Shown: positions 5,247 to 24,016, counted from the first letter of the stretch. The stretch: 24,373 nucleotides of DNA from a virus (IMGVR_UViG_3300041583_000083:1-24373); one strand, 5' to 3'. Made by a program: numbers and translations. The notes: a model not told the origin generated them from the sequence alone.

Positions 5247-5527
5247 CACATTCCTGCCCTTGCTAATGTTTTGCGCGCGGCTGTGACCTCCGCCGCCCAT
5301 GCGGTTTTGCAATGATCCGGCTGGAACCAAAACACCCGATCAATCACGGACCGCCGCTTGGCCCATTTGGGGCTGGTCATTCCGTCGATGAATGCCCGCG
5401 CGCTTAGTGTCTGGTGCGTTGATCCGCCGAATACCGCCGCGTTAACCACCCGACTTCCCGCCGCGATAAGCATCTCTGCAAACCGGGCGAGAATATAAAT
5501 CGGGCGGGATAGGCGGGCGCTATTCAT
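5246..5527 (-). CDS. Conserved small phage protein, unknown function
   Basis: The 93-residue product starts at the ATG at 5527, in an ATGA overlap with the previous gene; the frame further upstream is shadow. It has a hydrophobic N-terminal half (I-Y-I-L-A-R-F-A-E-M-L-I-A-A) and a pattern I recall from small proteins next to lysis genes in many phages: H-Q-T-L-S-A-R-A near residue 47, W-A-K-R-R-x-x-I-D-R-V-F-W-F near 64, and Q-P-D-H-C just after. The function of these proteins has not been established to my knowledge. Its position between tail and lysis genes is consistent. Confidence 0.6.
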   Translation of the reverse strand: MNSARLSRPIYILARFAEMLIAAGSRVVNAAVFGGSTHQTLSARAFIDGMTSPKWAKRRSVIDRVFWFQPDHCKTAWAAEVTAARKTLARAGM

Positions 5528-5808
5528 GCCGTGACCTGTGCCGCCGCGATAAAAAGCGCGTCCATCTGTTCGTCGGTGTATCCTAGCAGATACCCGAAAA
5601 ACGCGATGTTTTGACTGTTGCGCACCCAATCGTCGGCATTGTCGATGATGATCTTTTCCGCCCAGGTTGCGGTGTCACGATAGGCCAGCACCTTGCCCCA
5701 TTCTGTTTCGCCGAGCGTCAAGATGCCCTGCAATGGAGATATGACCATTGCCGCTCGGGATTGCGCCAGTGCAATTGCGGGGTCGGGCTGTCTAATCTTG
5801 ATAATCAT
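5524..5808 (-). CDS. Hypothetical small late protein
   Basis: This 94-residue frame is coupled to both neighbours by ATGA overlaps. The sequence is amphipathic and mostly helical, with a region W-A-E-K-I-I-I-D-N-A-D-D-W-V-R-N in the middle and a C-terminal helix (T-D-E-Q-M-D-A-L-F-I-A-A-A). No family is recognised. Location just after the tail fibre and its small follower gene suggests a tail-associated or assembly role, which is only inference. Confidence 0.6.
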   Translation of the reverse strand: MIIKIRQPDPAIALAQSRAAMVISPLQGILTLGETEWGKVLAYRDTATWAEKIIIDNADDWVRNSQNIAFFGYLLGYTDEQMDALFIAAAQVTA

Positions 5809-6020
5809 GCGCCCACCCCATCGGTTAAATCAGCTTCATCAACGGTCCAATCATTGCGCCATTGCCGATCTGATGGAACGTCAGCCGCGTCCACGATCTT
5901 GTAGGGCTTGCCTGTCGGCACGTCCTTGGCCGCGATTTCCTCAATTGTCAATCCACAGTCACATGGGATGATAATTGCCACGCCGCCTTCGTCATTTTGG
6001 TAGATGATACGTTGATTCAT
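5805..6020 (-). CDS. Small conserved phage protein next to the tail fibre
   Basis: The 71-residue protein has a good AAAGGGAAC ribosome site and contains a pattern seen in many phages and prophages of Proteobacteria: Y-Q-N-D-E-G-G-V-A-I-I-I-P near the N-terminus, then I-E-E-I-A-A-K-D-V-P-T-G-K-P-Y-K-I-V-D, then D-R-Q-W-R-N-D-W and a Thr-Asp-Gly end. The function is unestablished. Because it commonly follows fibre genes, a fibre-linked role is possible. It overlaps the next gene by ATGA. Confidence 0.65.
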   Translation of the reverse strand: MNQRIIYQNDEGGVAIIIPCDCGLTIEEIAAKDVPTGKPYKIVDAADVPSDRQWRNDWTVDEADLTDGVGA

Positions 6021-6031
6021 TTTGTTCCCTT

Positions 6032-7216
6032 TCAGCGGAAGATTGCAACAGAGAAGTTTGAGATGTCAAGTTTAGTAAAATAGGTCGCATCTAAGTAACC
6101 CGAAAAAACTCTACAGTTACCTGCTAGGTTTGCGAAACCGCATTTAGTACCGACGGCGTTTATAATCGTGTTCATTCCACCCGTCACAGCTACGTAATTA
6201 TTGTCACTTATCGCGGTCGCAAAATTAATCGTATAATCACCCGTGCCGTTATCCGTAACGCTCGACACATTCCCGCTGGCGCCAATTGCCACGGTGCCAG
6301 TGCCGTTAAAATTCACCCACGCGCGGCAGGCGTAGAGGGGGGCGGTGCCGGAAGCAACGAAGTCTGCGCCGTTAAGATTTACCTGTCCGCTTAGTCTTAG
6401 GGTTTGAGGCCCACCAGCATGCCCTATATACACCTCTCCACCGTCGACATTCACATTAAGGCGGGCACCGACCCCGTCATTCACTGCCATTATTTCGTTG
6501 CCGTCCATTCGCAGATTTGCTCCGTCGGTGGGGCCAATTTGGAACGCGTGAGCTGTGCTGTCTAAAGAAGCGTCGAGAGTGTTAGTGAGGCGAACCATTT
6601 CCGCTGTGGCAGCGCCCCCGACTGAAAGCGCATCAACGATAGACAAGCCTGTGCCGTTTAGGGTCAGCTTCCTCGTGTTAGCCACTGCAAAAGTGTGCTC
6701 TGTAGCACCGCTTGCATTTTGTTCAACAAAATAATCCTTGCTTACGAAATCGCCATCGTTGTTACGAGTTTGAAAACTATACTCTCCATTGTCTGCCATA
6801 AACACAACTCGATTATGTGTTGATGCACCGCCGCTTTCAAGTAAGGTTATTCGTGGCGATGTTCCAATGAACACCGGATCCAAAAGCGGCGCCGCGCCCA
6901 ACGTGACCCGCTGCGCTGCTGCGTTCGCATCGTCCAGCAACGCCCAGCCCGCAGCCGTCACGTTTGCAAACTCCACGCCGTTAGCCGCTGCGTTGACCCG
7001 CACCGCGTCCAATGCTCTGCCGGTTAGTGATGGCAGGTTTGCGGCCACCAGTGCCGCCGCCGTATTGCTGGCAAACGTCCCAAACGCCACAAGATCCGGC
7101 GCGAATTGCAGCGCCTGCCAGTCGAGAAACGCATCGACGTTGGTGTCAAACGCGGTCTGCGCCTGCCCTTTGTCCGGGATGGTCCCGACGAATTGTCTGA
7201 TAACTGGTGCGGTCAT
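6032..7216 (-). CDS. Tail fibre / receptor-binding protein
   Basis: The 394-residue protein starts like many siphovirus fibres (F-V-G-T-I-P-D-K-G-Q-A-Q-T-A-F-D, residues 9-24), followed by an Ala-rich helical shaft to about residue 118. The middle holds beta-rich, Asn/Gly/Thr-rich strands (L-T-L-N-G-T-G, V-N-V-D-G-G-E-V-Y-I-G) typical of trimeric fibre shafts. The end (about 296-394) begins A-C-R-A-W-V-N-F-N-G-T-G-T-V, a C-terminal head domain found in tail fibres of many marine and soil phages. It should form the receptor-contact trimer at the tail tip. Codon use turns more AT-rich after about residue 120, which suggests that the distal part was exchanged by recombination. Overlaps the upstream tail gene by ATGA. 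Confidence 0.85.
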   Translation of the reverse strand: MTAPVIRQFVGTIPDKGQAQTAFDTNVDAFLDWQALQFAPDLVAFGTFASNTAAALVAANLPSLTGRALDAVRVNAAANGVEFANVTAAGWALLDDANAAAQRVTLGAAPLLDPVFIGTSPRITLLESGGASTHNRVVFMADNGEYSFQTRNNDGDFVSKDYFVEQNASGATEHTFAVANTRKLTLNGTGLSIVDALSVGGAATAEMVRLTNTLDASLDSTAHAFQIGPTDGANLRMDGNEIMAVNDGVGARLNVNVDGGEVYIGHAGGPQTLRLSGQVNLNGADFVASGTAPLYACRAWVNFNGTGTVAIGASGNVSSVTDNGTGDYTINFATAISDNNYVAVTGGMNTIINAVGTKCGFANLAGNCRVFSGYLDATYFTKLDISNFSVAIFR

Positions 7217-8118
7217 AGCGTTTCCACTTCAAGTTGAACTTTTGTTATGCCGTGCACGTCTGCGACTGTCTGGCACGAACTGACAAAACCATAGGCTAAA
7301 AATTCGGGATTGTCATCAGGTCCGGCAAACACTGCTGCCACCCCGTCCAGATCGTTGATTGTGCGCCAGAACGGTGCGGCAGTGTAACCATCCAAGTGAA
7401 CGCGATACCCAACCCGTGATGCCGGTGTCCGGCGCAACAGAGACGTAAGCGTGCCCTCGGTTTTCTTCACGGACCGGCTGCGCAGCCCGCGCGTGGATTG
7501 CGTCTCAACGGTCCCGTACTCGTCGGCAATCCCCATGGCAATCGTGCTGACAGATGCCGTTGATCCGGTGTTTGTGATCGTGACTACCACGGCTGATCCG
7601 ATTGGAATGTTAAATTCAAAATTTGCGTAGGTTCGCTCTAAAGACTGCGGCGCGAAAAACCAGCGCCAGAACGAACCTTCATACTGGGTCGCGTCTGGCA
7701 AATTATAGGTCACGTCTGCCACATCGCCGGTCGTGTTCAGCGTGCCAACGATTGTGATCTGCGTGGCACGCAACCCAAAGAAGGCCATTGCCGACAGCCG
7801 TGGCAGGCCCGTCAGCGTAAATGTGATGCTGTCAGCGCGACTCGTGACCGTTTCAATAACGCGGTATTGATCCGCGCCAAATTGCAAGTCAAACGCGGCG
7901 TAACGATTGGCGGGGCCAGCGTCGAACCACTCTGTGCTGGCCGCCAGCCCCGGCTCTTGCGTGGTGCTGGCGGCTGATACCTCAAACAACCGTTCACCAA
8001 CCCGACGCACGTTGCCAAGCGTATAGGTGCCAGCCGTCCACGCCGTTTCCAGCACCACGTTTGTGCTGTCAATGTTGCCCTCGGTGATGGCGAAAGGTTC
8101 AATGATCCTCAGGGTCAT
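7213..8118 (-). CDS. Tail protein after tape measure (putative distal tail / tail-tip component)
   Basis: The 301-residue product is predicted beta-rich, with many Thr, Val and Gly residues and short aromatic motifs (G-S-F-W-R-W-F-F-A near residue 148, A-P-F-W-R near 260). It lies between the tape measure and the fibre and overlaps both by ATGA, the place where siphoviruses encode distal tail or hub proteins. I do not recognise a named family with confidence. A tail-tip structural role is inferred from position and fold character. Confidence 0.65.
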   Translation of the reverse strand: MTLRIIEPFAITEGNIDSTNVVLETAWTAGTYTLGNVRRVGERLFEVSAASTTQEPGLAASTEWFDAGPANRYAAFDLQFGADQYRVIETVTSRADSITFTLTGLPRLSAMAFFGLRATQITIVGTLNTTGDVADVTYNLPDATQYEGSFWRWFFAPQSLERTYANFEFNIPIGSAVVVTITNTGSTASVSTIAMGIADEYGTVETQSTRGLRSRSVKKTEGTLTSLLRRTPASRVGYRVHLDGYTAAPFWRTINDLDGVAAVFAGPDDNPEFLAYGFVSSCQTVADVHGITKVQLEVETL

Positions 8119-11100
8119 AAGGTTTGCTCCAATGTGAAGGCCAGCGTGTCGTCTGCCGCGTCTGCACCGCGCCCGGTATTGCCTGCCGTGATTTCCGACG
8201 ATGACACAAGCCGTTCCATGGACAGATTAAGCAACCGCAACTCTGCGCGCAACTGCGCATCCGATTCGCGCGGCGTGTATTCAATGCCGTTCGATTCCCT
8301 TGACGTGCCGCGCATAAAATCAACGCCGGTTGCAAAGCGGTCTTCATTGACCAGCGCCCGCAGACTATCCCCCAGCGCGTCGGCCCCGGCCCGGATCTCT
8401 GCAAAAGCGGGCGACAGTTGCATCAATGATGCCACCAGCCCGCTATCGCCCAGCGCGTCGGCCTCATCCACCAGCGCCCGGAACGCGGCCCGCGTGGCAG
8501 GCAGGGTATCAATCCCAAGCGCCAGCATTTCAATGGAAAGCAATTCCGTTGCCCGAGCGATACGTTCCGCGTCGGTGAAGAAATTCTGATAATAGGACTG
8601 TGACACCGCTTGGGTCAATTCCGCAAGATCATCAACCGCTTGGGTCAACCCCGCAAATGCCGGGGAAAGCATGATCAGCCCTGCCGCCAAGTTGTTGTTG
8701 CCTGCAAGCTGTGCGCTGTCCACAAGATCACGAAACGCTGCCCGGTCCTGTGGAATTGCACTGACGCCCAATGCGGCCAAAGAAGCCGCAAGTCGTGAAG
8801 TTGCATCAGCCCGCTTTTCTTCGCCCGTATAGAACGCATCATAATAAGCCGCCGTTGATGCCGCGAAATTATCCAGCGACCCAAATAGGCTTGCGAAGGT
8901 ATCTGCCGCCGCTGCCCCTGCCAATGAAACGTCATACGCTGAAAAACCAAGGCTTTGGAACACGTCGTTTACAACGGTAAGCGATTGCGCCAGACGCGAT
9001 ATAGCCGCCATTGCGCCCTCGCCGTCCTTTTGCAGCGCCTGCAATTCGGGGATCATGCCCGCAAAGGCATCGCCCATCCCTACAAATGCGTCCGTGACGG
9101 CCTTTTGCGCCGCCTCATCGGACAAGCCCTTTGTGGAGACATTGATTGTGTGGGCAAAGTTGTCAAAGGTGGATCCGGCAATGCCTAGCAATGCCGCCGC
9201 GTCAACGATGCCGCCTTGAATTTCACCCACTGCTTTAATCAGCGGGTTTGCGATTTCATCGCTTGCGTTTTGAAAGCTGGTTCGCACCTTTTTAGACAAG
9301 CCCCAAAACCGCTTGGTTTCAATTGTGCGAAACGTTTGCACCAGCGTGTCCATGCCATCGACGGTCACGCGCAAGCCTGAGTCAAGTTCCTTGGTTTTCT
9401 TTTTGAAAAAGCTGAACACCGCAGCAACCGCAAGCAATGGCGCTGCAATAGCCCCAATCGCCGTAGAAATGCCCGCCACACCGCCAACTGATAGGCCACC
9501 CGATACCGCACCAGTTAACCCGCCCAAGCCGCCGTAGACGCTTGTCATGAAGCCTGCGCCAAAGTTGGAGCCGATGGTGCCTAGCACGCCGCCAATGCTA
9601 CCTAGCATTCCGCCGCCGCTGCCCAAGCTGCCAAGCATCCCCAATGGCCCGCCGCCGCCGGCTGCCGCGCCTGCAACCGCCTGCGTTGCGCCTCCGATAA
9701 GGCCCATTGATGTAGCGATAGGGATGAGTATCTTGTTTTTAAGCGCCATTGAAATCATCTGCGAAAGCATTTGCTTAAAGCTGTCCAAGATCGACTTAAC
9801 AAACCCGCCAAAGTCCTTTAACCCGCCAGCGATAAAGTCGCCAAAGGCGTTGGAAACGCCGTCAATGGCAGAAACAAGCGGAGCTTCCATTTCCTTGCGC
9901 AGCCGCTCCGCCTCTTTTGCTGCTTCGGATAGGCCGTCTGCGGCGGCGGGTGCAGACTTCCCGCCGACCTTACCAAGCGCCACATCAACCTTGCCGACCT
10001 GCAACGCAGCCGTTGCAGATTCTTTTGCAAGATCAGTCATGGTCTGTGCAGTTTTTGCAAGTGCCGCCGCGCCAGCATCATAACGCGGGTCGCGCGGGTC
10101 AAATACGACCGTTCCGCCGTCACCCTTTGCCGCCCCCGCCTTTGCCAGTGCGCGGGCTAGCCCAACACTCACCCCAAGCTGCGCCGAAAGATTTGCGGCA
10201 GAACGGGTTGCTGAATCGAAGTTGATGTGCCCTGCAACACCCGCAAGGTCAAACCCGGCCTTTGCCGCTGCCAAGATTTCAAGCTTTAGGCTTTCCGACA
10301 CGTCCAGAGATTGCAATTGCGCATCAAGCACGGCCAACTCTGCGCGCTGCCTAGCCTCTGCCACCTGTACGCTGTCGGTTCCATAAGCCAATTCCAAACG
10401 CGCTATTTCATTTTTCTGTTGCAAGTTGGCAAGCAATTCATTTGCCGTTTTGAGGGACGCGTCGCTTTCCGCGCGTGAAAGCCCCGCGTATTCATACTGC
10501 TTTGCCATTTCGGCGGTAACGCCGCCAGATGCCACCAGTATGCCGTCAAGAAACTCCTTGATTTCAGCGCTGGCTTCCGCAGATGATTGGGTGCTTTGGT
10601 TAAACAATGCCGCGCTGCCAGCCGCATCAGCATAACCTTTTGCTGTAGCTTCCGCGTCTAGCTTTATCTTTTCGGAGTTGGGTTTAATACTGATGAGCGC
10701 AATGCCTAACGCTGTTGCAGCACCAACTGCCAAACCAATAGGGCCACCCAAAAACGCCAAAGCTGTGCGCAATACCCCTGCTGCAATCGCTGCAATAGTC
10801 ATAGCGCCAGACATTAGCGTAAGCCCGGTAATGGCAGCATATGACGCCGTTATCATTGCTGGGATTTGTGTTGCGGCAAGGCTTGCAATTACCATCAAAA
10901 CGGTATCCAAGTTTTGCCCAACAGTCACGGCAACCGACGCGAGCGCCTCCATTGCAGGAACCAATACCGAAAGAAGAGCATTGCCAAATCCTAGAGCAAT
11001 ATCACCGGCCGCCGCTGTCAGCTTGTTTAGACGCTGGTCTAGGCTGTCGGACATTTTTTGATAGGCCGCGTCTGTAGCGCCCGCTTTGATGCCCATCTGC

Positions 11101-12128
11101 TCCATGATTTCGGCATATTGGCCACCAGCTTCGCCAGCAAACAAAAGCGCAGCCTTCAAAGCCTCAACCGAACCAAATAGCTGCGCCATTTGTTCAACGT
11201 TGCCGCCTGTTTTCTCTGCTACCTCAGCCAAGAAACCGCCAAGACCCTTGGCTTGCAAACCTGCTGCTGTGAAATTGATGCCAAGCGTTTCCGCCAATTC
11301 GCTGGCCTCTTTTGTCGGTTTCACAACCCCCACAAGGGCAGCGTTCAAACTTGTGACCGCTGCCGATGTGCTAAGGTTGTTTTTTGTCAAAGCCGATGTT
11401 GCAGCCACAACCTCATCAAAACTAATCCCAAGCGCTTTTGCTGTTGGAATAACCCCGCCAAGATTAGCAGACAATTCTGCCACGGTTGTAACGCCAGCCT
11501 TCATGCCAACAAATAGCGCGTCAGATACTTCCGTGGCGCTAATTGCCTCCTTGCCATAGCTGTTAATCACGCCGGACAAAATGCCCACGGCAGTTGTCAC
11601 ATCTGTCGCGCCGCCGATTGCAAGGCGGTTTGCCGCATCCAAGGTTGTGTTAGCCTCCGCAATGCTTCCGGCGCCCGCACTAATTGCCTGATAAAACGCT
11701 TGGACCTGTGAAGTCGCATCGGTGCCGTAGGCCTTGCCAAGATCACGCGCAGCCGCCGATAGTTGCTCAATTTCTTGCGGGGTTCCGGCAATCAATGTGC
11801 TTGTTTCAGCAAGTGCTACGTTGAATGCCCGCGCTTGCGTTAAGGATGCCGCGATAGCTTGAAACGAAACAAAGGCAGCGCCCATTGCCCCAAGGGATGC
11901 CGCTGCTGCAATCGCCGCACCGCGCACTGCGCTTGTAGCAGTAGCAAACCCCTTGACTTTAACGCCCGCCGCCGCAGCATCAGCCCCGGTTGCATCAAAG
12001 GCGCGACCAGTCTTATCAACAGCCTTTTCCGCACCCCCTGCCGCTTTGGTAACATCGCCTAGAGCCGCCTGACCTTTTTTAAGGTCAGTCGAATCCATCT
12101 TTGCGACAAGGGATGCAAAATCAACCAT
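8115..12128 (-). CDS. Tail tape measure protein, TP901 type
   Basis: At 1337 residues this is the largest gene of the window. It sets tail length and occupies the tail lumen. An N-terminal coiled-coil-like region is followed at roughly residues 60-380 by the TP901-type core, visible in phrases such as E-T-S-T-L-I-A-G, Y-Q-A-I-S-A-G-A and A-L-G-I-S-F-D-E-V-V-A-A. Long hydrophobic segments follow at about 380-470, and a Gly/Met-rich hydrophobic stretch at about 810-905, expected of a protein ejected into the membrane. Near residue 906 is a basic F-F-K-K-K-T-K. The C-terminal part carries two 84-residue repeats. The N-terminus overlaps the chaperone fusion by a few bases. By analogy with lambda (about 1.5 Angstrom per residue), the tail would be roughly 200 nm long. 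Confidence 0.93.
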   Translation of the reverse strand: MVDFASLVAKMDSTDLKKGQAALGDVTKAAGGAEKAVDKTGRAFDATGADAAAAGVKVKGFATATSAVRGAAIAAAASLGAMGAAFVSFQAIAASLTQARAFNVALAETSTLIAGTPQEIEQLSAAARDLGKAYGTDATSQVQAFYQAISAGAGSIAEANTTLDAANRLAIGGATDVTTAVGILSGVINSYGKEAISATEVSDALFVGMKAGVTTVAELSANLGGVIPTAKALGISFDEVVAATSALTKNNLSTSAAVTSLNAALVGVVKPTKEASELAETLGINFTAAGLQAKGLGGFLAEVAEKTGGNVEQMAQLFGSVEALKAALLFAGEAGGQYAEIMEQMGIKAGATDAAYQKMSDSLDQRLNKLTAAAGDIALGFGNALLSVLVPAMEALASVAVTVGQNLDTVLMVIASLAATQIPAMITASYAAITGLTLMSGAMTIAAIAAGVLRTALAFLGGPIGLAVGAATALGIALISIKPNSEKIKLDAEATAKGYADAAGSAALFNQSTQSSAEASAEIKEFLDGILVASGGVTAEMAKQYEYAGLSRAESDASLKTANELLANLQQKNEIARLELAYGTDSVQVAEARQRAELAVLDAQLQSLDVSESLKLEILAAAKAGFDLAGVAGHINFDSATRSAANLSAQLGVSVGLARALAKAGAAKGDGGTVVFDPRDPRYDAGAAALAKTAQTMTDLAKESATAALQVGKVDVALGKVGGKSAPAAADGLSEAAKEAERLRKEMEAPLVSAIDGVSNAFGDFIAGGLKDFGGFVKSILDSFKQMLSQMISMALKNKILIPIATSMGLIGGATQAVAGAAAGGGGPLGMLGSLGSGGGMLGSIGGVLGTIGSNFGAGFMTSVYGGLGGLTGAVSGGLSVGGVAGISTAIGAIAAPLLAVAAVFSFFKKKTKELDSGLRVTVDGMDTLVQTFRTIETKRFWGLSKKVRTSFQNASDEIANPLIKAVGEIQGGIVDAAALLGIAGSTFDNFAHTINVSTKGLSDEAAQKAVTDAFVGMGDAFAGMIPELQALQKDGEGAMAAISRLAQSLTVVNDVFQSLGFSAYDVSLAGAAAADTFASLFGSLDNFAASTAAYYDAFYTGEEKRADATSRLAASLAALGVSAIPQDRAAFRDLVDSAQLAGNNNLAAGLIMLSPAFAGLTQAVDDLAELTQAVSQSYYQNFFTDAERIARATELLSIEMLALGIDTLPATRAAFRALVDEADALGDSGLVASLMQLSPAFAEIRAGADALGDSLRALVNEDRFATGVDFMRGTSRESNGIEYTPRESDAQLRAELRLLNLSMERLVSSSEITAGNTGRGADAADDTLAFTLEQTL
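8343..8846 (-). repeat. Two tandem 84-residue repeats in the tape measure C-terminus
   Basis: Residues 1095-1178 and 1179-1262 share one pattern: Y-Y-x-x-F-[YF]-T, then A-x-x-L, A-L-G, [IL]-P-x-x-R-A-A-F-R-x-L-V-D, then S-P-A-F-A. The unit is 252 bases. The two copies have diverged in DNA and in about half the residues, so the duplication is old. Similar units occur in tape measure proteins of other Gram-negative phages. Confidence 0.8.
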
Positions 12129-13007
12129 TCATTTCGTCCTTTATTTCGCGCTCAATCGGCGGTATAGAAAACGGGCTTGCGCCCTCTTGCAGCCCGGTCG
12201 CATAGGCTTGTGACATGCGCCGCAATAAACTGGCTTCCCACCCGTCAACATCGCTAACGGTCATGGCAATATAAGCCTGCAAATCAACCCAATCCAAAGC
12301 CATTGCCCCGCCCATTGGCGCGGATTTAACAGGGCCAGCTTCCATCAGCATGTGCAAAAGATATGCACCGGCTTCAACGTCCATGAATGGTGGGGCAATC
12401 CCCGCGCCAACGTATTGTTCGGCGCGGGTTTCAGCTTTCCGGCCTTTGTCGTTTGGCCCGTAATCAATCGCTGAATTAAGCCAACCGGCTTGCTTCGCGG
12501 CAACGATTAGCTGCGCTTGCCGTTTCCCAAGCGATTCGCCTGTTTACCTGCAAACTCGCCAACCTGCTTTGCAAACGGATTGTTTGTCATTTCAAAAACA
12601 GGCGATCCGTCTTTGTCGATCACATTGTCGCCATTGGCGTCCGTCTTGATGCCCATTTCCGGGAATGACAGATCAAGGAACCATTCGGCATCTTCGGCGG
12701 TTGCAGGCCGATCCCCGCGCGATACGTTTTCAAATCCAACGATGAATGGCGCGGCGCTTTCACAAAGCTGGTTGTGGACGTCCTCCATCACGCGGGCTTC
12801 TTCGTCTTTATCCTTGCCCTTGCGAGACATGGCCGCGCGCTGCTTGTCGCGCATGCGGCCTTGCATGGTCTTGGACGCTGTGCCGCGAACAATGACGCGG
12901 CAAGGCTTGTCGCCGTCCATCATTGGCTCACTGGACCATTGGTCGAGGATTTGCATTGGCGTGCCGATTTCAGCCTGTGCGCGGCTGTCGAATTTAGAAA
13001 AGTCCAT
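12121..13007 (-). CDS. Tail assembly chaperone frameshift fusion (gpGT-type)
   Basis: A -1 shift at GGGAAAC (12522-12528) joins the gpG-type frame to an open frame that runs to a TGA at 12121, directly at the tape measure start. The fusion would be 295 residues: 162 from the first frame and 133 from the second. The second frame is open from the slippery site through 12507, with no stop, before the first downstream ATG at 12384, as expected if it is entered by frameshifting and not by a separate start. In lambda and many siphoviruses the fusion and the shorter protein coat the tape measure protein and recruit tube subunits, but neither ends up in the virion. A separate gene at 12121-12384 is therefore not called. 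Confidence 0.85.
12498..12528 (-). promoter_or_regulatory. Programmed -1 frameshift site GGGAAAC with adjacent stem
   Basis: Read in the chaperone frame the codons are TTG-GGA-AAC, so the heptamer is G-GGA-AAC, a full X-XXY-YYZ slippery site (12528 to 12522 on the minus strand). A perfect six-base stem, CGGCAA (12517-12522) with TTGCCG (12498-12503), starts at the last base of the heptamer, and a further AAGCC-GGTT-GGCTT hairpin lies about 30 bases later. Known stimulatory stems usually lie 5-9 bases after the site, so which of these helps is uncertain. Confidence 0.85.
12507..13007 (-). CDS. Tail assembly chaperone, unshifted product (gpG-type)
   Basis: The ATG at 13007 has an AAAGGA ribosome site seven bases upstream. 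The frame stays open further upstream, but that part is leader. The 166-residue product has a highly charged middle (D-K-Q-R-A-A-M-S-R-K-G-K-D-K-D-E-E) and ends N-R-L-G-N-G-K-R-S within 14 bases of the slippery site. Position between tail tube and tape measure and the frameshift arrangement identify it as the gpG-like chaperone. It is made in excess over the fusion in known systems and keeps the tape measure protein soluble during tail assembly. Confidence 0.82.
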   Translation of the reverse strand: MDFSKFDSRAQAEIGTPMQILDQWSSEPMMDGDKPCRVIVRGTASKTMQGRMRDKQRAAMSRKGKDKDEEARVMEDVHNQLCESAAPFIVGFENVSRGDRPATAEDAEWFLDLSFPEMGIKTDANGDNVIDKDGSPVFEMTNNPFAKQVGEFAGKQANRLGNGKRS

Positions 13008-13080
13008 TTTATAATCCTTTGGGTTCTTTAGGTTCAAAGCGGGGAATGGCAGAACCACCTCCACCCCCCGCCCTATTCAA

Positions 13081-13101
13081 CGCGCCTATTTTATGGGCGC
13101 G
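13081..13101 (-). other. Hairpin just downstream of the tail tube gene
   Basis: CGCGCC and GGCGCG form a six-base GC-only stem around a nine-base AT-rich loop, nine bases after the stop of the tail tube gene. No U-run follows, so termination without Rho is doubtful. It could protect the 3' end of a processed tail tube message or attenuate transcription. Confidence 0.5.
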
Positions 13102-13109
13102 CCAAATTC

Positions 13110-13586
13110 TTATGATGGATGAACATCGTCTACAGTTGCGGCGTTCTGGCGGAAGCCGACGGTGAAGCCTTCAAAGCTGGAATTGTCCGGCATGTTGGGT
13201 TGGAAGCTGTGCAAAATGCCTTGCGCGTACTGCACAACGTCACCCGTCACCGGGGCATTGTTTGTGCCGGTGCCGGTTACGATCTTGATTGCACCAACGC
13301 CAGCTTGGCTGTTTGCCGCCGTTTTGATTGCAATCTGGCCCGCGTCAGCCGCTACGTTGCGGAAGGTTGCGGTGGTATCCACACCCTGCGCCGCGCCTTT
13401 GACCGCGCTGGTGAAGCCGGTTTGCAAGTCGGGAACGTCAATCATTGAGTGACTGACGCCAAGCTGTGGCAGGGTTTGCCCGCCCTTAACCAGCACCCAA
13501 GTCAAGGCTTCAAAGCCCGCTTTGTTGTTGCTGGCAGGGGCTGCGGTGGAGTGATAGATGGTCTTGCCGATATGGTTAGCCGTCAT
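13110..13586 (-). CDS. Major tail (tube) protein
   Basis: The 158-residue protein has the size, beta-rich composition and place (between the tail terminator region and the chaperones) of siphovirus tail tube proteins. It contains G-F-E-A-L-T-W-V-L-V-K-G-G near residue 24 and a G-F-T-V-G-F-R-Q-N-A end, similar in style to tube proteins of the lambda V and HK97 kind. Subunits form stacked hexameric rings around the tape measure. AAAGGATC lies eight bases before the ATG at 13586. It stands alone, with intergenic gaps on both sides that each hold a hairpin, unlike its tightly overlapping neighbours, as expected for a very highly expressed gene. Confidence 0.82.
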   Translation of the reverse strand: MTANHIGKTIYHSTAAPASNNKAGFEALTWVLVKGGQTLPQLGVSHSMIDVPDLQTGFTSAVKGAAQGVDTTATFRNVAADAGQIAIKTAANSQAGVGAIKIVTGTGTNNAPVTGDVVQYAQGILHSFQPNMPDNSSFEGFTVGFRQNAATVDDVHPS

Positions 13587-17739: not shown

Positions 17740-17991
17740 TTATGGCAGTTTAGAAAGTTCTGTTATTTGACGCATTGTTTTTTTCCCAAGACCTGCGATG
17801 TGTTTCCACCTAGGCCCAGCAGGGAGATTAGATGCATGTGGCCTAATTTTCATCGGCACTTCCTCCATGCAATACACATTAAACCTTTTGCACGCATCAA
17901 TGACAAACGAATCATCCGTACAAGAATTTTCTTCGGATAGAAACCCATTTTTCATAAGGGTGTTTTCTAACCTAGCTGTGATGTGTGTCAT
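17740..17991 (-). CDS. Probable moron: small protein with helix-hairpin-helix-like C-terminus
   Basis: The 83-residue protein starts at the ATG at 17991 behind a strong GGAGGGCGGGA ribosome site; the frame upstream is shadow. It has visibly less GC-rich codons than the head genes around it. The C-terminal part (R-W-K-H-I-A-G-L-G-K-K-T-M-R-Q-I, residues 61-76) resembles the helix-hairpin-helix of the RNA polymerase alpha C-terminal domain and of some DNA-binding proteins. The N-terminal half has two helices and three cysteines. With its own terminator right behind it and its place between two conserved head genes, it fits the definition of a moron. A 90-base gap upstream could hold a promoter, but no convincing one is visible. 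Confidence 0.6.
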   Translation of the reverse strand: MTHITARLENTLMKNGFLSEENSCTDDSFVIDACKRFNVYCMEEVPMKIRPHASNLPAGPRWKHIAGLGKKTMRQITELSKLP

Positions 17992-18080
17992 ATTCCCGCC
18001 CTCCAAGGCATCCACTTTGCTAACCGGGCAGGTTGGGTGGAAACCAACTTTTCGGCGTATCCGCCTAGCCCTTGCAAACC

Positions 18081-19160
18081 TTAAACGCGTTCCCTCAATT
18101 CTGCAAGCGTTAGTTCCCGCCCGTTTCCGTCCACAAGATCCCGGAACTTGATTTTGCCGTCGCGCCATAGATCAGCCCGGCCCGCCCCGAGGTTGGCGTC
18201 TTGCCGTTCCTTGCTTTGCCGCGATAGCCAGCCCTCGAACGTGGTATCCTCTGCGATCTGCCCGTCCATGCTTGCCCGCGTGGATGCTGGCAAATCAATG
18301 TCAAAGCCCAATTCACGCAGAGACTTTAGAACCGGCACGGAAGTTGATCTACATCCCCAATGCAAATTTCCCGGCCCGCCAAGCCACGGCAGCGTGTGGT
18401 CGATTGGCTCGTGACCCTCGACTGTGTATGTCAGCCCGTCGCGCGTTGCGCACTCGATTGTTGTGCGAAGATCTATGGTCGAGGCCCATTGCAGCGCCTT
18501 GACCAAATCCTGATTGGCCTCATACAGCCCCTGCCGTGATTTCTGCGATACGGCTTGCGTTGCCGACCGCACCAGGCTTTCCGCATTGCGCCGCGATACG
18601 TCCATAAAGCCCTGGACCATTTCGCCGTTTTGCGTGCCGCCCCTAATGCGCCGAATCAAGCTGGCGTTTGTCTCGCCCTCAGCAATGCCAAGCCGCATAG
18701 TGTCTGTAAACCGTTGCAGCGTATCGCCCGCCTGCCGTGATAGCCAATCCGACACTGGCGCGCCTTGTATCAGCACGCCGTCCACAATCGCCGCAAGCTG
18801 CCCGCGCGTCACGCTGGTCGTGATCAGTTCAGCGCCAACAGCCCGGTTGATAGACGACTTGGCGAAAGCCGTTTCAATGTCTGCGAGTTCGCGCAATTCG
18901 CCAATCAAGCGGACACTTTCGCCGCGATATGCGTTTCGGATTGTGTCCTTAACCTGCGCCAGCAGCTTTTCCAGCCGTGCCGCCTGCCGCGATGGTGTTG
19001 CTATGCCCGTCGGATCAATGCGGGCAAGCTGTGCCACGATATCGCCTTCGATTTCTTTCAGAAACCGCGCCGAATCCTTTAGCTGGCCCGCCGTCAGCCG
19101 TTGCAGATCCAGCGCCCGGCCCGTGATGGCGTCTAGGATCTCAGTGTTTACGCTGGCCAT
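18081..19160 (-). CDS. Head morphogenesis protein, Mu F / SPP1 gp7 family
   Basis: The 359-residue protein carries the phage Mu protein F-like domain (PF04233) at about residues 185-280: R-N-A-E-S-L-V-R-S-A-T-Q-A-V, then the region with C237-A-T-R-D-G, P-I-D-H and the hallmark L-H-W-G-C-R (266-271). The N-terminal half is long and helical. A C-terminal W-L-S-R-Q, later G-A-G-R-A-D-L-W, is a feature seen in many members. These minor head proteins bind the portal and act in procapsid assembly and DNA ejection. It normally follows the portal directly; here the fibre cassette separates them. A GAGGTAA ribosome site precedes the ATG. Confidence 0.87.
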   Translation of the reverse strand: MASVNTEILDAITGRALDLQRLTAGQLKDSARFLKEIEGDIVAQLARIDPTGIATPSRQAARLEKLLAQVKDTIRNAYRGESVRLIGELRELADIETAFAKSSINRAVGAELITTSVTRGQLAAIVDGVLIQGAPVSDWLSRQAGDTLQRFTDTMRLGIAEGETNASLIRRIRGGTQNGEMVQGFMDVSRRNAESLVRSATQAVSQKSRQGLYEANQDLVKALQWASTIDLRTTIECATRDGLTYTVEGHEPIDHTLPWLGGPGNLHWGCRSTSVPVLKSLRELGFDIDLPASTRASMDGQIAEDTTFEGWLSRQSKERQDANLGAGRADLWRDGKIKFRDLVDGNGRELTLAELRERV

Positions 19161-19176
19161 TACGTTACCTCATCCA

Positions 19177-19650
19177 TCAAGGCTTTTCAGGCCACACAAC
19201 AGTAAACGGGAACCCATCCTGATCTGGCACATCACGCAGGGCTTGACGGTAGGTTGTCATTGCCTCGCCCATTGTTTTGTCGCTAAGGGCTTGCCAGTCT
19301 GTTGATTGCAGGAGTTGGTCACGCTTGTTACGGACTGCCTGCTCTGCCTGATCTTGCGGCTTGTTGACGACCGTGTAGCCAATCACCCAGCGACCTGTCT
19401 CGTATGTCTCACCAGTTTCCTCGTCAACCGCTGTCTCGTTGTTGTGAGGCTCTGCGTCCCGCACGACTGTCTGCACCAGTGGGTCACACTCAGGGCGCGC
19501 GTCAGGCATCACATGGAAGATACCGTAGCTGGCAAGGATTGCATCACCGATCTTCTTTGGAAAGCTGGTCTGCGGATTGTCACGGCGAAGGTCTCCGAGC
19601 GTGTAAGGAAATTGCTCTACCTGTCCGTTTGATGTTTTCACGAGTAGCAT
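19177..19650 (-). CDS. Phage tail fibre assembly chaperone-like protein
   Basis: The 157-residue protein ends with the pattern of the Phage_tail_APC (PF16778) group: V-R-N-K-R-D-Q-L-L-Q-S-T-D-W then a central gap, Y-R-Q-A-L-R-D-V-P, and G-F-P-F-T-V-V-W-P at the end. The N-terminal part includes F-P-Y-T-L-G-D-L-R-R-D-N-P-Q-T-S-F-P. Such proteins help fold or attach fibres and are usually next to the fibre they serve; here that is the propeller-repeat protein at 19663-20511. AAAGGAAAACC precedes the start at 19650, similar to the leader at 21437. Location inside the head module is unusual. Confidence 0.7.
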   Translation of the reverse strand: MLLVKTSNGQVEQFPYTLGDLRRDNPQTSFPKKIGDAILASYGIFHVMPDARPECDPLVQTVVRDAEPHNNETAVDEETGETYETGRWVIGYTVVNKPQDQAEQAVRNKRDQLLQSTDWQALSDKTMGEAMTTYRQALRDVPDQDGFPFTVVWPEKP

Positions 19651-19662
19651 TTAGGTTTTCCT

Positions 19663-20511
19663 TTATGCGGTGGAGTATTGGTAGATGGTGTCGTTAGATG
19701 ACCCAATGACATACATCTTTGAGCCATCTGCTTTGAAAGACAAACCTCTGGGCCTGTCGTCTTGAGAGATTACATCAAAACTAATACTGTCGTAACTTGC
19801 CGTTGATATGTCCCAATATGTTGACAAAGAGTATTGGTAAACACTTGATTCTGTCGTTGCAAAAACCCAGACTTTACTACCCTCTGGGTCAAAAAATAAT
19901 CCAGAGGCTCCCGTAGATTGGGAAGCCACACTTAGTGATTTTGATGCGTAGCTTGCCGATGAAACGTCCCAAGCAGACGAAAGAGAGTATTGGTAAACGC
20001 TGTTACTTTGAAGTCCGATTATATACATTATCAAACCGTCAGTAGAAAGCGACACACCTGCTGGCGTTGTATCTTGAGAACCTACGCTAACTGAATTAGA
20101 CGAGTAGCTTGCCGTTGATATGTCCCAAGCGGCACTCATATCATATTCAAAGATTCTGTTATTTGTGTTGCCTGCGATATAAAACTTTGAGCCGTCATGC
20201 TTAAAGAATACACCTAAAGTACCAGTGTCTTGGGATGAAAGATCAAAAGCAACATCATCGTAGCTTGCGGATGATAAATCCCAAGCAGACGAAAGAGAGT
20301 ACTGGAACAAAGAGTCATTGCTCTGCGCTACAACATATAATTTTAATCCGTCTGGCTTGAAAAAACAATCAAATGGTAATGAATCTTGTGACGCAACACT
20401 AAAGCTAACGCTATCATAACTCGCATTTGCTAGGTCAGGGTCTGTCCAACCATCGCCACCGCCAGCAGAAACCCCAGCCGCACCCATCTGCATTAGCCGT
20501 GCGATACTCAT
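19663..20511 (-). CDS. Beta-propeller-like repeat adhesin (fibre cassette)
   Basis: The 282-residue protein is built of 52-residue repeats: residues 38-89, 90-141, 142-193, 194-245, and a 37-residue last copy at 246-282. Each unit runs S-V-x-S-Q-D...G-x-x-F-x-x-D-G-S-K-x-Y-V-x-G...N-D-x-[IV]-Y-Q-Y-S-L-S-x-x-W-D-[IL]-S-x-A-S-Y-D. The last copy lacks its final strand, and the N-terminus (residues 26-37) supplies exactly that strand, a Velcro-type closure typical of beta-propellers. Such repeats are common in marine phage and bacterial surface proteins and probably bind glycans. It lacks a signal peptide. DNA is less GC-rich than the head genes. Its chaperone follows. Confidence 0.75.
   Translation of the reverse strand: MSIARLMQMGAAGVSAGGGDGWTDPDLANASYDSVSFSVASQDSLPFDCFFKPDGLKLYVVAQSNDSLFQYSLSSAWDLSSASYDDVAFDLSSQDTGTLGVFFKHDGSKFYIAGNTNNRIFEYDMSAAWDISTASYSSNSVSVGSQDTTPAGVSLSTDGLIMYIIGLQSNSVYQYSLSSAWDVSSASYASKSLSVASQSTGASGLFFDPEGSKVWVFATTESSVYQYSLSTYWDISTASYDSISFDVISQDDRPRGLSFKADGSKMYVIGSSNDTIYQYSTA
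19666..20400 (-). repeat. Five 156-base tandem repeats (52-residue propeller units)
   Basis: The repeat unit is exactly 52 codons in the four complete copies, with no indels between them, and the last copy is 37 codons. Copies keep the W-D-[ILV]-S-x-A-S-Y and Y-Q-Y-S-L-S core but vary in the loops before it, which fits a ring of blades with variable ligand-binding loops. Confidence 0.85.
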
Positions 20512-20984
20512 GCCATTGCCGCCCCAGCTAAGAATCCGTAATAAGTTGTGCCACCGTCCTGCGTGTAAAACGTATAGACATTCGTAGCGCCGCTTGCAGG
20601 TGCATCAGGTGCGGTACCACCAGCCCAGTCAACCGAGGTAGGCCAAGTCACAGTGTACGTCCCAGAGGGCGTAACCTTGAGCGTGAACCCGTAGGCTGTT
20701 CCCGTTGTAGGCGGGTTGCTGAACACATATGTAGCAGCACTTGACGGCGCATGTGAGAACACGTTACCAGAAGTCAGGTCAAGAGTTGTGCCTGTGATCG
20801 TCCCTACGCCTTCGGTGTCAAAACTGGCCTCTTTTCTAAAGCCTTGATAGCTGCCAACACCAGTCGCAACAGCAAGCCGATCCTCGTCGGTGATTACATA
20901 AATCTGGCCCAGCAGCAAACCATTGGCTGCGGCCAGTGTGTTCAGGTCAGCGCGTGACCCTCGTTTGTGTTGGACGTCTGGCAT
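20508..20984 (-). CDS. Fibre-like protein with Mtd_N-like N-terminus
   Basis: The 158-residue protein starts M-P-D-V-Q-H-K-R-G, then L-L-L-G-Q-I-Y-V-I-T-D-E-D-R-L-A-V, which matches the short N-terminal intertwining domain seen in major tropism determinant-like and other fibre proteins. The rest is beta-rich (T-L-K-V-T-P-S-G-T-Y-T-V-T-W-P near residue 100) and ends with Y-T-F-Y-T-Q-D-G-G-T-T-Y-Y-G-F. A short trimeric spike or fibre is likely. It overlaps the propeller gene by ATGA. The upstream gene begins with the same motif, so the two are probably related by duplication of the N-terminal domain. Confidence 0.65.
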   Translation of the reverse strand: MPDVQHKRGSRADLNTLAAANGLLLGQIYVITDEDRLAVATGVGSYQGFRKEASFDTEGVGTITGTTLDLTSGNVFSHAPSSAATYVFSNPPTTGTAYGFTLKVTPSGTYTVTWPTSVDWAGGTAPDAPASGATNVYTFYTQDGGTTYYGFLAGAAMA

Positions 20985-21437
20985 TTAGAATGTTCCGCAG
21001 TCTACCGTTTCAACGGCCAATGTGACAAACGCGTTTCCAGCATCTTTGGTCATAGCCATTGATGTGTTCATGCGCAGAACACCGTCAGTGCCGTCCGTGC
21101 CAAAGATAAAGCCCGCTGTGCCACCGTCAACAACAGACACCTTTTCATCAGAAGATGCAGCAGGAATGTTAAGGGCAGTCTTGAACGAGTTAAATGTGAT
21201 TCGCTTTTCTTTGACACCAGTGGCACTAGCGTCGTGCATGATGAGAAGGTCAGCAGTACCGTCAACAACAGCAAGGGCGTCAAGAGCGTCGATAGCAGGC
21301 ACAACAGGAACCATCGTGGTCCCGTCTGTTGGAAAGTGTGCAGTCTGTCGGTCGGTCGTAAAGAAAACCTGACCCGGGAGCAACGATGAGGAAGGTAGGT
21401 TTGCAAAGAGGCCGCGTTTCTGCTGGACTGATGGCAT
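20985..21437 (-). CDS. Fibre-like protein with Mtd_N-like N-terminus
   Basis: The 150-residue protein begins M-P-S-V-Q-Q-K-R-G and L-L-P-G-Q-V-F-F-T-T-D-R, the same N-terminal pattern as its downstream neighbour. Residues 48-100 are Asp/Ala-rich (A-I-D-A-L-D-A-L-A-V-V-D-G-T-A-D), and the C-terminal half is beta-rich with G-F-I-F-G-T-D-G-T-D-G-V-L-R-M. AAAGGAATACC precedes the start. It probably forms a short fibre or an adaptor for the next proteins. The role is inferred from composition and neighbours. Confidence 0.62.
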   Translation of the reverse strand: MPSVQQKRGLFANLPSSSLLPGQVFFTTDRQTAHFPTDGTTMVPVVPAIDALDALAVVDGTADLLIMHDASATGVKEKRITFNSFKTALNIPAASSDEKVSVVDGGTAGFIFGTDGTDGVLRMNTSMAMTKDAGNAFVTLAVETVDCGTF

Positions 21438-21456
21438 TGGGGTATTCCTTTATGTT

Positions 21457-21630
21457 TTAGTTGAAAGTGCCGAGGTCTAACGCGCCGTTTACAAACAGCC
21501 CCGCCGCGCTCGTGCTTAAGAGATTGCCCGCCTGTGGGTCGATTGTGACAACTGACGACCCAGGTGGCCCTTGAATGCCAACAGTAACAACAACCGGAGG
21601 CGCGGTCTGCTGAACTACAACAACCGTCAT
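21457..21630 (-). CDS. Small protein with collagen-like GPPG motif (57 aa)
   Basis: An ATG at 21630, overlapping the preceding stop as ATGA, opens a 57-codon frame. The product is Val/Thr-rich (M-T-V-V-V-V-Q-Q-T), has a single G-I-Q-G-P-P-G-S motif in the middle and ends L-D-L-G-T-F-N. Small proteins with this pattern occur beside fibre genes of many phages and may form a trimeric connector. Coupling to the gene before it argues that it is real. Confidence 0.65.
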   Translation of the reverse strand: MTVVVVQQTAPPVVVTVGIQGPPGSSVVTIDPQAGNLLSTSAAGLFVNGALDLGTFN

Positions 21631-21983
21631 CGCGTAACCTCTTTGCTCAAGATCACAAGCCCCTCAAGCCAGCGCGCCGCACTTGTCGCGCTTGTGACAA
21701 ACTCCAAGTCGTAAAACCCGTCCGTCAAGATGGTGGCAGTTTCCGCTGCGGTCAGCGTCATCGTCACAACGCCATCGGTGCCGCCAAATGCAAGCCGACC
21801 GTTTTCCGTGGTCAGTTCTATAATAACGTCGGTTGATTCTTTGGTTTTGCGAATCTGCATGCGCCCGGTTAAACCCGTCAGATCCACAGGATCACCGTCC
21901 GCTGATTGCATAAACGTTACTACCTCCGAAAAATCGGACCCCTGATAGATTGTCAAATAATAACGGGCTGGAACAACGGTCAT
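21627..21983 (-). CDS. Beta-sandwich appendage or head-fibre protein
   Basis: The 118-residue protein starts V-P-A-R-Y-Y-L-T-I-Y-Q-G-S-D-F and ends L-E-G-L-V-I-L-S-K-E-V-T-R, with D-L-T-G-L-T-G-R-M-Q-I-R in the middle. The same frame of motifs occurs in the BppU-like or Ig-like N-terminal domain that anchors receptor-binding proteins and in small structural proteins near head genes of other phages. It likely attaches the cassette proteins to the particle. The function is inferred. It begins in an ATGA overlap with the 14-codon micro-ORF. Confidence 0.62.
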   Translation of the reverse strand: MTVVPARYYLTIYQGSDFSEVVTFMQSADGDPVDLTGLTGRMQIRKTKESTDVIIELTTENGRLAFGGTDGVVTMTLTAAETATILTDGFYDLEFVTSATSAARWLEGLVILSKEVTR

Positions 21984-22024
21984 TTACCCACCTTCTTCGG
22001 CTTGCGCTTTTTCGTGTATGCCAT
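21980..22024 (-). CDS. Possible 14-residue basic micro-protein
   Basis: The frame MAYTKKRKPKKVGK begins with an ATG directly after the portal stop codon (TAA then ATG) and ends in an ATGA overlap with the next gene. A GGGG run lies nine bases upstream. Seven of 14 residues are Lys or Arg. Both junctions are those of genuine coupled genes, but so short a frame may also serve only to carry ribosomes across the gap. No family is known. Confidence 0.35.
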   Translation of the reverse strand: MAYTKKRKPKKVGK

Positions 22025-23416
22025 TTACTGCCCCAATCCCATAGGCGCGCCGGTCAGCGCAGGGGCAACCGATGCCAGCGCGTCCATTTCCGCGCCCGTG
22101 TCCAGATCAGGCCGCAGCACCCCGCGCCGCTTGCGCTCCTCAAAATAGGTTTCCAGCGTCAGATAGCCCATTGCAACGTCTTTTTGCATTGCCATGACCT
22201 CTTGCGGGGTCATCATCGTCACGCCATATTCTTTGTTGACGTTGATCGTGATCGAAACATCACCAAGGCCCGCGTAAAACGCCATCCATTGGAGCGCCTG
22301 CTCCAACGCGTCCTTCAGGCTGTCAGCCATCATTGCAAGCGTCGAGGTTTCTTTGATCGCATCCAACGCCGCCCCGGTTGCGGATTGCGCGCGGGCAACC
22401 AGCAATTGCAAGCCAAGCGTTTGCATCTGAAATTCAAGGTCTTTCAGGTCTTGCCGCCCGCTGTCGATCGCCTTGCCGCTATGCTCCACCCATTGAAGCG
22501 TTGCAGCCGGATCCCGCGATGTTACCGCCGTGCCTGCGCTGATGGTCAGCGGCTCATCATCACCCCGGCCAGATGCAAACAGGATCGGCACGCGGGCAAA
22601 GTGCAAGATATTGCGCTGGTCCGATTGGGATTGCCAGTGCGCGATGTTGACGTCTGTCAAATCCTCAAGCACAGGCTCGCCGGTGAAAAATCCGGTGCGC
22701 TGTGCGTAGAACGGAATGACCGTGATTTCCGGCGCTTCGGTTGTGTATTCGTCCACAAGCGCCCAATGCTTTTTGCTATCCTCGCGGTATAACCGCACCT
22801 GCACGCCGTTGGGCATGCGGTCCAGCACCCGCACCTGCGCAATTTCAATCTGCGAAAACTCATCCCTTGGGTTTTGCTCTGTCACGCTTTCCATGATGCG
22901 CAATTGCGACAGTGCCAGCACGTTGCCAAACAAGCCCGTTTGGAAGCCCAGAACGTCCTCCACGCGCAAGTGCACCAGATACGGGCGCAAGCCCTGCACA
23001 GCGGCCTGTGCGCGCGTGGTGTCAGCATCCCGGCGCGGTGCCTCAACCATGATGTACGAAACGCCCGGCACAAACGCGTCCTTGAACACCTCAGCCGCAA
23101 ACACGCTTAGGTCACGCCCCTGCATGTCGATATCTTCGGCCATGTCGATGATTTGTTGCGGCGCTTCGGTGATCTCAACGGAATTATCAAACACCCGGCC
23201 CGTCATGTCTTTGATCGTCTTGCGCAGCGCGTTAAACAGCCATGACGAATTGAGGCGCGCTTGATAGTCGTCAGACGCCTCGGCCTTGAATTTGGGCAGG
23301 TATGCTTGCCCTTCCTTGCGCATCCCGGCGGTGCCAGACATTAGCGCGCGGCCCTTGGCCGATGCCTGCACCATTGCGGCCATTGCGTCGGTCTGTTTGG
23401 CTACGCCTTCAAACAT
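22025..23416 (-). CDS. Portal protein, DUF4055 family
   Basis: The 463-residue protein matches the DUF4055 (PF13264) portal group: near the N-terminus G-T-A-G-M-R-K-E-G-Q-A-Y-L-P, then F-N-A-L-R-K-T-I-K-D-M-T-G-R-V-F, in the middle I-P-F-Y-A-Q-R-T-G-F-F-T-G-E-P-V-L-E-D-L, and A-H-W-Q-S-Q-S-D-Q-R-N-I-L-H-F-A. The portal forms the dodecameric DNA channel. The start is the ATG at 23416, which lies inside the 3' end of the HNH gene; an in-frame stop lies 39 bases upstream and no alternative ATG exists in between. The Shine-Dalgarno sequence is poor (GGGCGG only), unlike most genes here. Confidence 0.85.
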   Translation of the reverse strand: MFEGVAKQTDAMAAMVQASAKGRALMSGTAGMRKEGQAYLPKFKAEASDDYQARLNSSWLFNALRKTIKDMTGRVFDNSVEITEAPQQIIDMAEDIDMQGRDLSVFAAEVFKDAFVPGVSYIMVEAPRRDADTTRAQAAVQGLRPYLVHLRVEDVLGFQTGLFGNVLALSQLRIMESVTEQNPRDEFSQIEIAQVRVLDRMPNGVQVRLYREDSKKHWALVDEYTTEAPEITVIPFYAQRTGFFTGEPVLEDLTDVNIAHWQSQSDQRNILHFARVPILFASGRGDDEPLTISAGTAVTSRDPAATLQWVEHSGKAIDSGRQDLKDLEFQMQTLGLQLLVARAQSATGAALDAIKETSTLAMMADSLKDALEQALQWMAFYAGLGDVSITINVNKEYGVTMMTPQEVMAMQKDVAMGYLTLETYFEERKRRGVLRPDLDTGAEMDALASVAPALTGAPMGLGQ

Positions 23417-23985
23417 GCGCGCGGCCGCCCGTGATTTTCGTGATAACCTTCTTCATGCTCTGCCCTCTTCCTGACCTCAACCGCAACGCTAATGTCCTTA
23501 AATGCACCAAGGCTTTTTCGGCTTTCACCGCTACCTATGGTTACAGTCCAAGACATTCGCCTCTTGTCCCAGAAAATTCCCGAATGTCCACTTTTATTCC
23601 TAATGCTCATTGCAGAGTTCTTGCTATTTTCCCGATTTGTAACCACGCGCAAGTTGCCGATCCTGTTGTCTGCACGGTCGCCATTGATGTGGTCCATGAA
23701 GTCTTCAGCGTGCGAGCCATGATAAACCGACCAAACCACCCTATGTGCAGAGATAAAAACGCCGTTCACTGATCCACTTTTGTAACCTTTATCGTTATTG
23801 TGCGCCAATGCCTCTAGGCCACTATACCTTGAGTTCCAGGTGTTGCAGGCATGGGTTGCGGTTATTTTCAACCCATTGCTAAACTGCCAAGGATGCCTTT
23901 TTTTCCAAAAGAGCTTTCCCGTCTCTGGCTCATACCGCAACAGTTGACGAAGTAGTGTCGGGCAGGGTAGTGCTTTCGTAGTCAT
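23401..23985 (-). CDS. HNH homing endonuclease with AP2-like C-terminal domain
   Basis: The start at the ATG at 23985 fits an AAAGGA ribosome site; a GTG one codon upstream is an alternative. Numbering the longer, 195-residue form, the HNH core is at 80-115: A-H-R-V-V-W, then D-H-I-N-G-D-R-A-D-N-R-I-G-N-L-R with the D-H, N and N-L-R elements intact. The C-terminal part from about 134 (S-G-H-S-G-I-F-W-D-K-R-R-M-S-W, then L-G-A-F-K-D) looks like an AP2 DNA-binding domain. Such enzymes cut intron- or gene-free sites and spread themselves. It is inserted between terminase and portal, has lower GC, and ends 16 bases into the portal gene. Probably active, as no key residue is lost. Confidence 0.9.
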   Translation of the reverse strand: MTTKALPCPTLLRQLLRYEPETGKLFWKKRHPWQFSNGLKITATHACNTWNSRYSGLEALAHNNDKGYKSGSVNGVFISAHRVVWSVYHGSHAEDFMDHINGDRADNRIGNLRVVTNRENSKNSAMSIRNKSGHSGIFWDKRRMSWTVTIGSGESRKSLGAFKDISVAVEVRKRAEHEEGYHENHGRPRACLKA

Positions 23986-24016
23986 CACGTGATCCTTTCA
24001 TGATCCGTTTGATTAA

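Follow-up and report, generated by a model that had tools for sequence, protein, structure and literature searches.

A six-gene block between the portal and MuF genes

The viral contig IMGVR_UViG_3300041583_000083, analyzed over its whole length of 24.4 kb (hereafter the window), harbors a cassette of six open reading frames (ORFs) between the genes encoding the portal and a MuF-like head protein. An earlier note, generated from the sequence alone, had described a block of fiber-like genes in this interval, and all six ORFs lie where it placed them. The cassette is read on the minus strand from 21983 to 19177, with its six ORFs co-directional, tightly packed and intact in frame. The cassette genes and the other features of the window to which we refer are the following:

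21627..21983 (-), anchor, LtfC-like immunoglobulin (Ig)-fold protein, 118 amino acids (aa); phrog_1084, phrog_3304, PF23926 and AlphaFold fold matches
21457..21630 (-), putative GPPG tether/adaptor, collagen-like, 57 aa; read from the sequence
20985..21437 (-), p150, the most conserved link protein, with an N-terminal VQQKRG module and the C-terminal tag DCGTF
20508..20984 (-), p158, with a VQHKRG N-terminal module and a tail-fiber-type C-terminus; phrog_7760, phrog_9017
19663..20511 (-), five-repeat beta-propeller protein, 282 aa; SGL and Lactonase matches
19177..19650 (-), tail fiber assembly chaperone (Phage_tail_APC); PF16778, phrog_4912
21984..22024 (-), mini-ORF MAYTKKRKPKKVG, 13 codons, separating portal from cassette and marking the site of insertion
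22025..23416 (-), portal (DUF4055), left neighbor of the cassette; DUF4055 E 1.5e-44, phrog_145 E 2.6e-110, PDB portal 8xb5 E 2e-19
18081..19160 (-), MuF-like head protein, right neighbor of the cassette; PF04233 E 1.1e-6, phrog_241 E 1.5e-111
6032..7216 (-), distal fiber; phrog_11355 tail fiber protein E 7e-14

Judged from sequence comparison, the cassette is a portable unit that phages gain, lose and exchange where one head-module gene meets the next. It was found at 73–92% DNA identity in at least six unrelated head modules. In L015–L024 (loci other than the window carry L numbers) it follows the head-closure gene Hc1 and precedes MuF, with a portal, protease and capsid different from those of the window; elsewhere it lies between a Felix O1-type portal and the terminase (L037, L052), between MuF and an HK97-type portal (L041/L048), between portal and terminase (L034/L043) or upstream of the terminase (L046). 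The DNA similarity shared by the window with unrelated lineages, which reaches 87–92% in some, starts just before the anchor start codon in L017, L018, L024 and L041 (left edge 21995/21992), leaving out the portal, and stops close to where the APC gene ends (right edge 19189–19152). Within the unit, conservation is uneven. The L037 copy shares 93% identity with the window in p150 but only 58% in the anchor and 47% in the GPPG protein, which is what one would anticipate were the anchor to adapt to the virion and p150 to serve as a shared link. In L017, p158 is 96% identical to that of the window but the propeller only 45%, which indicates that the propeller is exchanged independently inside the cassette.

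Close relatives, defined here by a MuF 85–98% identical to that of the window, revealed the same exchange within a single slot, in keeping with the exchangeability proposed in the earlier note. The slot is empty in L005, L009/L067 and L065, where about 40 bp separate portal from MuF; it contains unrelated small genes in L002, L004, L006 and L064, and a different fiber with YadA-type repeats in L003. In L013 (portal 97%), the anchor, GPPG protein and p150 are the same as in the window, and the fiber differs. The mini-ORF is also present between portal and MuF at the empty sites of L005, L009 and L065; the window and L013 have their cargo downstream of it, and L002, L004 and L048, in which it directly precedes MuF, have theirs upstream. 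That the two flanking genes are normally adjacent, as the earlier note had stated, was observed in L005, L009 and L065 as well as in the cultured DUF4055/MuF phages HK639 and DMCA and a Mannheimia phage, and in PS-1 and MP1412 an HNH/homing endonuclease gene is the sole gene separating them.

The block also differs from its surroundings in composition. Its content of guanine plus cytosine (GC) is 0.502, against 0.583 in the portal gene, 0.589 in MuF and 0.553 in the whole window, and no other 2807-bp stretch of the window is as poor in GC; GC at third codon positions drops to 0.38 in the propeller gene, and codon use departs from that of the virion genes. The lower GC already claimed for the block is thereby borne out across the window.

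A diverged cassette was detected in a Sphingorhabdus cluster resembling a gene transfer agent (GTA), where L100 (Sphingorhabdus rigui) 5231–8061 comprises an anchor slot, a GPPG adaptor ending in IDGGTFH, p150 and a KRG protein, and at the same place in the Sphingomonadales/Sphingorhabdus loci L098, L099, L101, L103, L106 and L107. The L100 cluster includes an HK97-type portal and capsid, a GTA-gp10-type protein (PF11836) and DUF2460. In a single ORF of this GTA-like cluster (11096–13420), DUF2460 is combined with the non-contractile tail sheath domains PF23844 and PF23845. In a limited search of the literature we came across no account treating this cassette as a unit; its portability as such, together with the joining pattern of its parts described below, appears to be new here.

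Other variation was seen around the cassette. An HNH endonuclease gene is inserted between portal and terminase at 23401–23988 of the window. A gene with a GC of 0.47 (17740–18168) stands between the scaffold gene and MuF. L003 and L005 have other genes at this position and L009 has none, which makes it a second variable slot of the head module. The MuF-like protein of L009 (7001–9154; also L008 and L067) has 717 aa versus about 360, with an apparent intein-like insertion.

Cassette proteins and the tag/module pattern

The anchor matched phrog_1084 (E 1.2e-24), phrog_3304 (L-shaped tail fiber assembly, E 9e-7) and, below the curated cut-off of 27 bits, the LtfC family PF23926 (E 1.1e-4, 23.1 bits). 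Its AlphaFold model, with a mean confidence (pLDDT) of 86, retrieved T5 p132 (7qg9, Z 11.5) and DT57C LtfC (8hqz, Z 11.4) at 22–26% identity across 110 residues, and displays the Ig-type beta-sandwich of p132; unrelated Ig folds, the background of this search, score about Z 8. Further fold matches were a mycobacteriophage baseplate protein (Z 11.2), a P74-26 neck protein (Z 9.3) and BppU (Z 9.2). In its predicted fold the anchor corresponds to T5/DT57C LtfC, whose ring holds the T5 side fibers. Among solved structures, chain M of PDB entry 26dk alone is clearly similar to the anchor in sequence (profile E 4.6e-8). The literature looked at gave no account of the phage or virion place of this entry, which was absent from the fold-search output and was matched neither by the window portal nor by the L062 portal in searches against the PDB.

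The GPPG protein is composed of hydrophobic, strand-like N-terminal stretches, a Pro linker, the GPPG part and the C-terminal tag DLGTFN. Its N-terminus is fused to a long collagen-like fiber in L027, and the N-terminal strand/Pro unit is present several times over in L049. From this architecture we infer that GPPG proteins probably resemble LtfA-like tethers. Homologs of p150 were found at 44 viral loci (53–97% identity) and 24 bacterial-genome loci (48–77% identity), and its N-terminus is related to that of p158 (15 of 34 residues identical, E 1e-5 for a single pairwise comparison). Two proteins sharing an Mtd-like N-terminus had been proposed in the earlier note: the sharing stands, and the likeness to Mtd is weak (Mtd_N E 0.077, 13.4 bits, under the cut-off of 26.3). 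The C-terminus of p158 matches phrog_7760 (E 2e-10) and phrog_9017 (E 4e-10), both tail fiber protein families, and among relatives the p158-type N-terminus of about 52 aa is joined to nine C-terminal types. No credible PDB relatives were found for p150 or p158, and the p150 AlphaFold model (pLDDT 48) was too poor for a fold search.

The propeller protein exceeds the cut-off of SGL (PF08450, E 6e-8, 33.0 bits versus 26.3) and also matches Lactonase (E 9e-5); its five repeats are regularly spaced (52, 52, 52, 52 residues), and its counterparts in other cassettes are 44–55% identical. It is the probable distal or receptor-binding part. The last gene encodes a Phage_tail_APC chaperone well above the family cut-off (PF16778, E 3e-18, 65.7 bits versus 26.6; phrog_4912, E 7e-21). 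With these results, the calls of an Ig-like anchor, now of the LtfC/BppU type by profiles and model, of a propeller-repeat protein and of a fiber assembly chaperone are all substantiated.

Inspection of the protein ends revealed a recurrent pattern. GPPG proteins and p150 carry a C-terminal D-x-G-T-F(N), and a motif of this type ends 94 of 1053 ORFs, namely 39 GPPG proteins, 44 p150 proteins and 11 others (2 of them p158-type), the last of which by inspection occupy fiber or anchor slots of cassettes. The gene following a tagged ORF starts with a K-R-G/S module in 41 of 47 distinct readable cases. The bacterial-genome loci, found later and not used to define the pattern, provided a separate check: the strict tag is present on the adaptor before p150 in 18 of 24 (two more have one-letter variants) and on p150 in all 24, and the gene after p150 begins with a KRG, KRS or KKS module in 21. 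Since the bacterial p150 copies are homologs, the weight of this check rests on the adaptors and the downstream genes. The cassette parts thus seem to follow a joining pattern in which D-x-G-T-F(N) ends are followed by KRG/KRS/KKS starts, and we hypothesize that the tag of one protein docks on the module of the next.

The assembly that we envisage would begin with the LtfC-like protein forming a ring or collar on the virion. To this ring the GPPG protein would donate its N-terminal beta-strands, starting a collagen-like trimer whose D-x-G-T-F tag would dock on the VQxKRG module of p150; the tag of p150 would in turn dock on the matching module of p158. The variable adhesive parts would be carried by p158 and the propeller protein, with the APC protein aiding folding.

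Probable attachment site on the virion

In the majority of lineages the cassette lies among head or neck genes. In the cyanophage S-CAM9 and related contigs, the anchor, an adaptor of 69/70 aa ending in DGG(T/A/S)F and a KRS fiber come directly before the neck genes gp13/gp14, the slot which in T4 is occupied by the whisker gene wac. Streptomyces phage Faust encodes the anchor and a GPQGAPG protein between the head-to-tail adaptor and the major capsid protein (MCP), and in the Sphingorhabdus/Sphingomonadales clusters the cassette is found between a gp6-like head-tail connector gene and the major capsid gene. In Sf14, the neck whiskers revealed by cryo-electron microscopy are encoded immediately downstream of the portal (PMC11821841). 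The related Sf13 has the same gene order; L062 bears an anchor–p150 pair, and DC31 an LtfC–GPPG–fiber set, after a related portal.

Several observations weigh against a neck fiber built in this way. The closest relative of the anchor, T5 LtfC, is a tail-tip collar; related cassettes follow the tail genes in AP1, adjoin lysis-type genes in L102, L105 and L108, and lie between tape-measure and tail-tube-like genes in L096. Sequence comparison of the Sf14 whiskers gp30 and gp31 with the anchor showed no similarity (hhalign probability 0.5% and 0.2%), the fold match of the anchor model to 9mt4_H, a connector Ig protein from Bas63, lies at Z 8.8, barely over the background, and some tagged fibers have no module gene behind them (cyanophage fibers ending in DCGTY, and L046). 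Gene position as proof of a neck location was rejected in view of AP1, L096, L102, L105 and L108: position alone cannot decide, because the anchor is nearest to the tail-tip LtfC of T5/DT57C and some cassettes stand beside tail or lysis genes. In the longer records no tail sheath was found, hence no contractile lineage is proved there. The placement at head or neck and not at the tail tip, as the earlier note had it, accordingly agrees with most lineages and is qualified by the T5-like anchor and by the tail and lysis placements. The neck or head-tail junction appears to be the most likely attachment site, and for the whole construction, a self-contained portable fiber cassette at this site with parts chained by tags and modules, we estimate a probability of roughly 0.58.

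Side fibers at the tail tip, held by a distal LtfC-type collar as in T5, would make the head-module location a harmless insertion of a mobile unit. The T5 p132 and DT57C LtfC fold matches, the L-shaped tail fiber family phrog_3304 and the cassettes at the tail or lysis end of AP1, L102, L105 and L108 speak for such fibers, as does phage Donnerlittchen, where the gene next after that for the tip attachment protein has a product beginning with a p150-type domain. However, T5 LtfC surrounds the T5-specific p140 ring, called a landmark of T5-like phages (PMC10038345), and near-identical p150 occurs across lineages with very different portals, mostly among head and neck genes. We regard a tail-tip position as less likely than the neck. 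Fibers on the capsid surface, or vertex spikes like those of RcGTA, are suggested by cassette-less relatives: L002 (5765–6007) and L005 (end of ORF 9044–9445) encode a homolog of Rcc01079 just after the major capsid gene (phmmer E 5e-4), followed in L002 by a fiber gene, and this phage family therefore does use head spikes. After the window MCP no RcGTA-type base protein is present, only 56 bp separating MCP (15759) from the gene that follows (15702). The anchor, though, is unlike Rcc01079, and replacement of one system by the other is unestablished, L006 and L009 having neither; mutual exclusion, suggested by two loci against two, is not claimed for the same reason. Capsid fibers seem improbable to us. 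A recently gained accessory block, its proteins acting outside the virion as a decoy or at the cell surface or simply decaying, would account for the low GC, the divergent codon usage and the many relatives devoid of the block; it is hard to reconcile with intact frames, with a p150 strongly conserved across phyla and with a fiber chaperone and LtfC-like anchor carried along, and we give it very little credence.

Under the neck-fiber interpretation, the cassette would offer a host-surface contact in addition to the distal fiber at 6032–7216, and a second, exchangeable receptor-binding system, as suggested in the earlier note, is a reasonable inference. The cassette is of interest as a putative mobile adhesin unit crossing phage lineages; its tag-to-module pattern could allow many unannotated small virion genes to be recognized and ordered, and if it does sit at the neck, the role of neck and collar fibers, a long-standing question, becomes directly testable. 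Some GTAs may carry the same appendage. A broader and more doubtful idea, which we advance tentatively, is a universal plug-in neck-fiber system in which an LtfC-type ring and small trimeric proteins joined by D-x-G-T-F tag and K-R-G module form one cassette shared by siphoviruses, Felix O1-like and T4-like phages and alphaproteobacterial GTAs, so that host-binding parts could be exchanged with the virion unchanged.

Comparison with known systems

In DT57C, LtfC forms a dodecamer whose sheets are extended by the N-terminal beta-strands of LtfA, followed by the LtfA trimer (PMC10713586). The cassette shares with the T5/DT57C collar an Ig-fold anchor of equal size (Z 11.4–11.5 over 110 residues) and, probably, a partner fiber with short N-terminal beta-strand stretches ahead of a trimer; it differs in that the T5 fiber begins with a coiled coil instead of GPPG, and in that the T5 genes belong to the tail module and encode one large fiber rather than a chain of small proteins. 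The gp30/gp31 whiskers of the Felix O1-like Sf14 are likewise small beta-sandwich proteins, and their genes directly follow the portal gene, which the cassette genes also adjoin, but sequence similarity is undetectable and the whiskers are dimers bound to the adaptor.

The RcGTA head spike (Rcc01079/Rcc01080) is also an exchangeable adhesive appendage, with base homologs in cassette-less relatives of the window, whereas its base protein and gene place are different and it is attached to capsid vertices. TP901-1 BppU has an Ig-like N-terminal anchor domain with a weak sequence match (E 0.012) in addition to its fold similarity (Z 9.2), yet it is a lactococcal phage baseplate protein without GPPG or p150 partners. 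In the A-1(L) neck fiber gp82-gp81-gp80, small trimeric proteins encoded by a single operon are joined head-to-tail (PMC10966104), as proposed here; the anchor gp82N of that fiber, in contrast, has a pilus-like fold and sits on the gp5 pentadecamer, an LtfC-type anchor not being described there. Without being assigned to the T5 or the A-1(L) system, the cassette would, as far as the sequences indicate, function in the manner of the T5 LtfC/Ltf joint, and its proposed chain of small proteins, all encoded by one operon, recalls the A-1(L) neck fiber.

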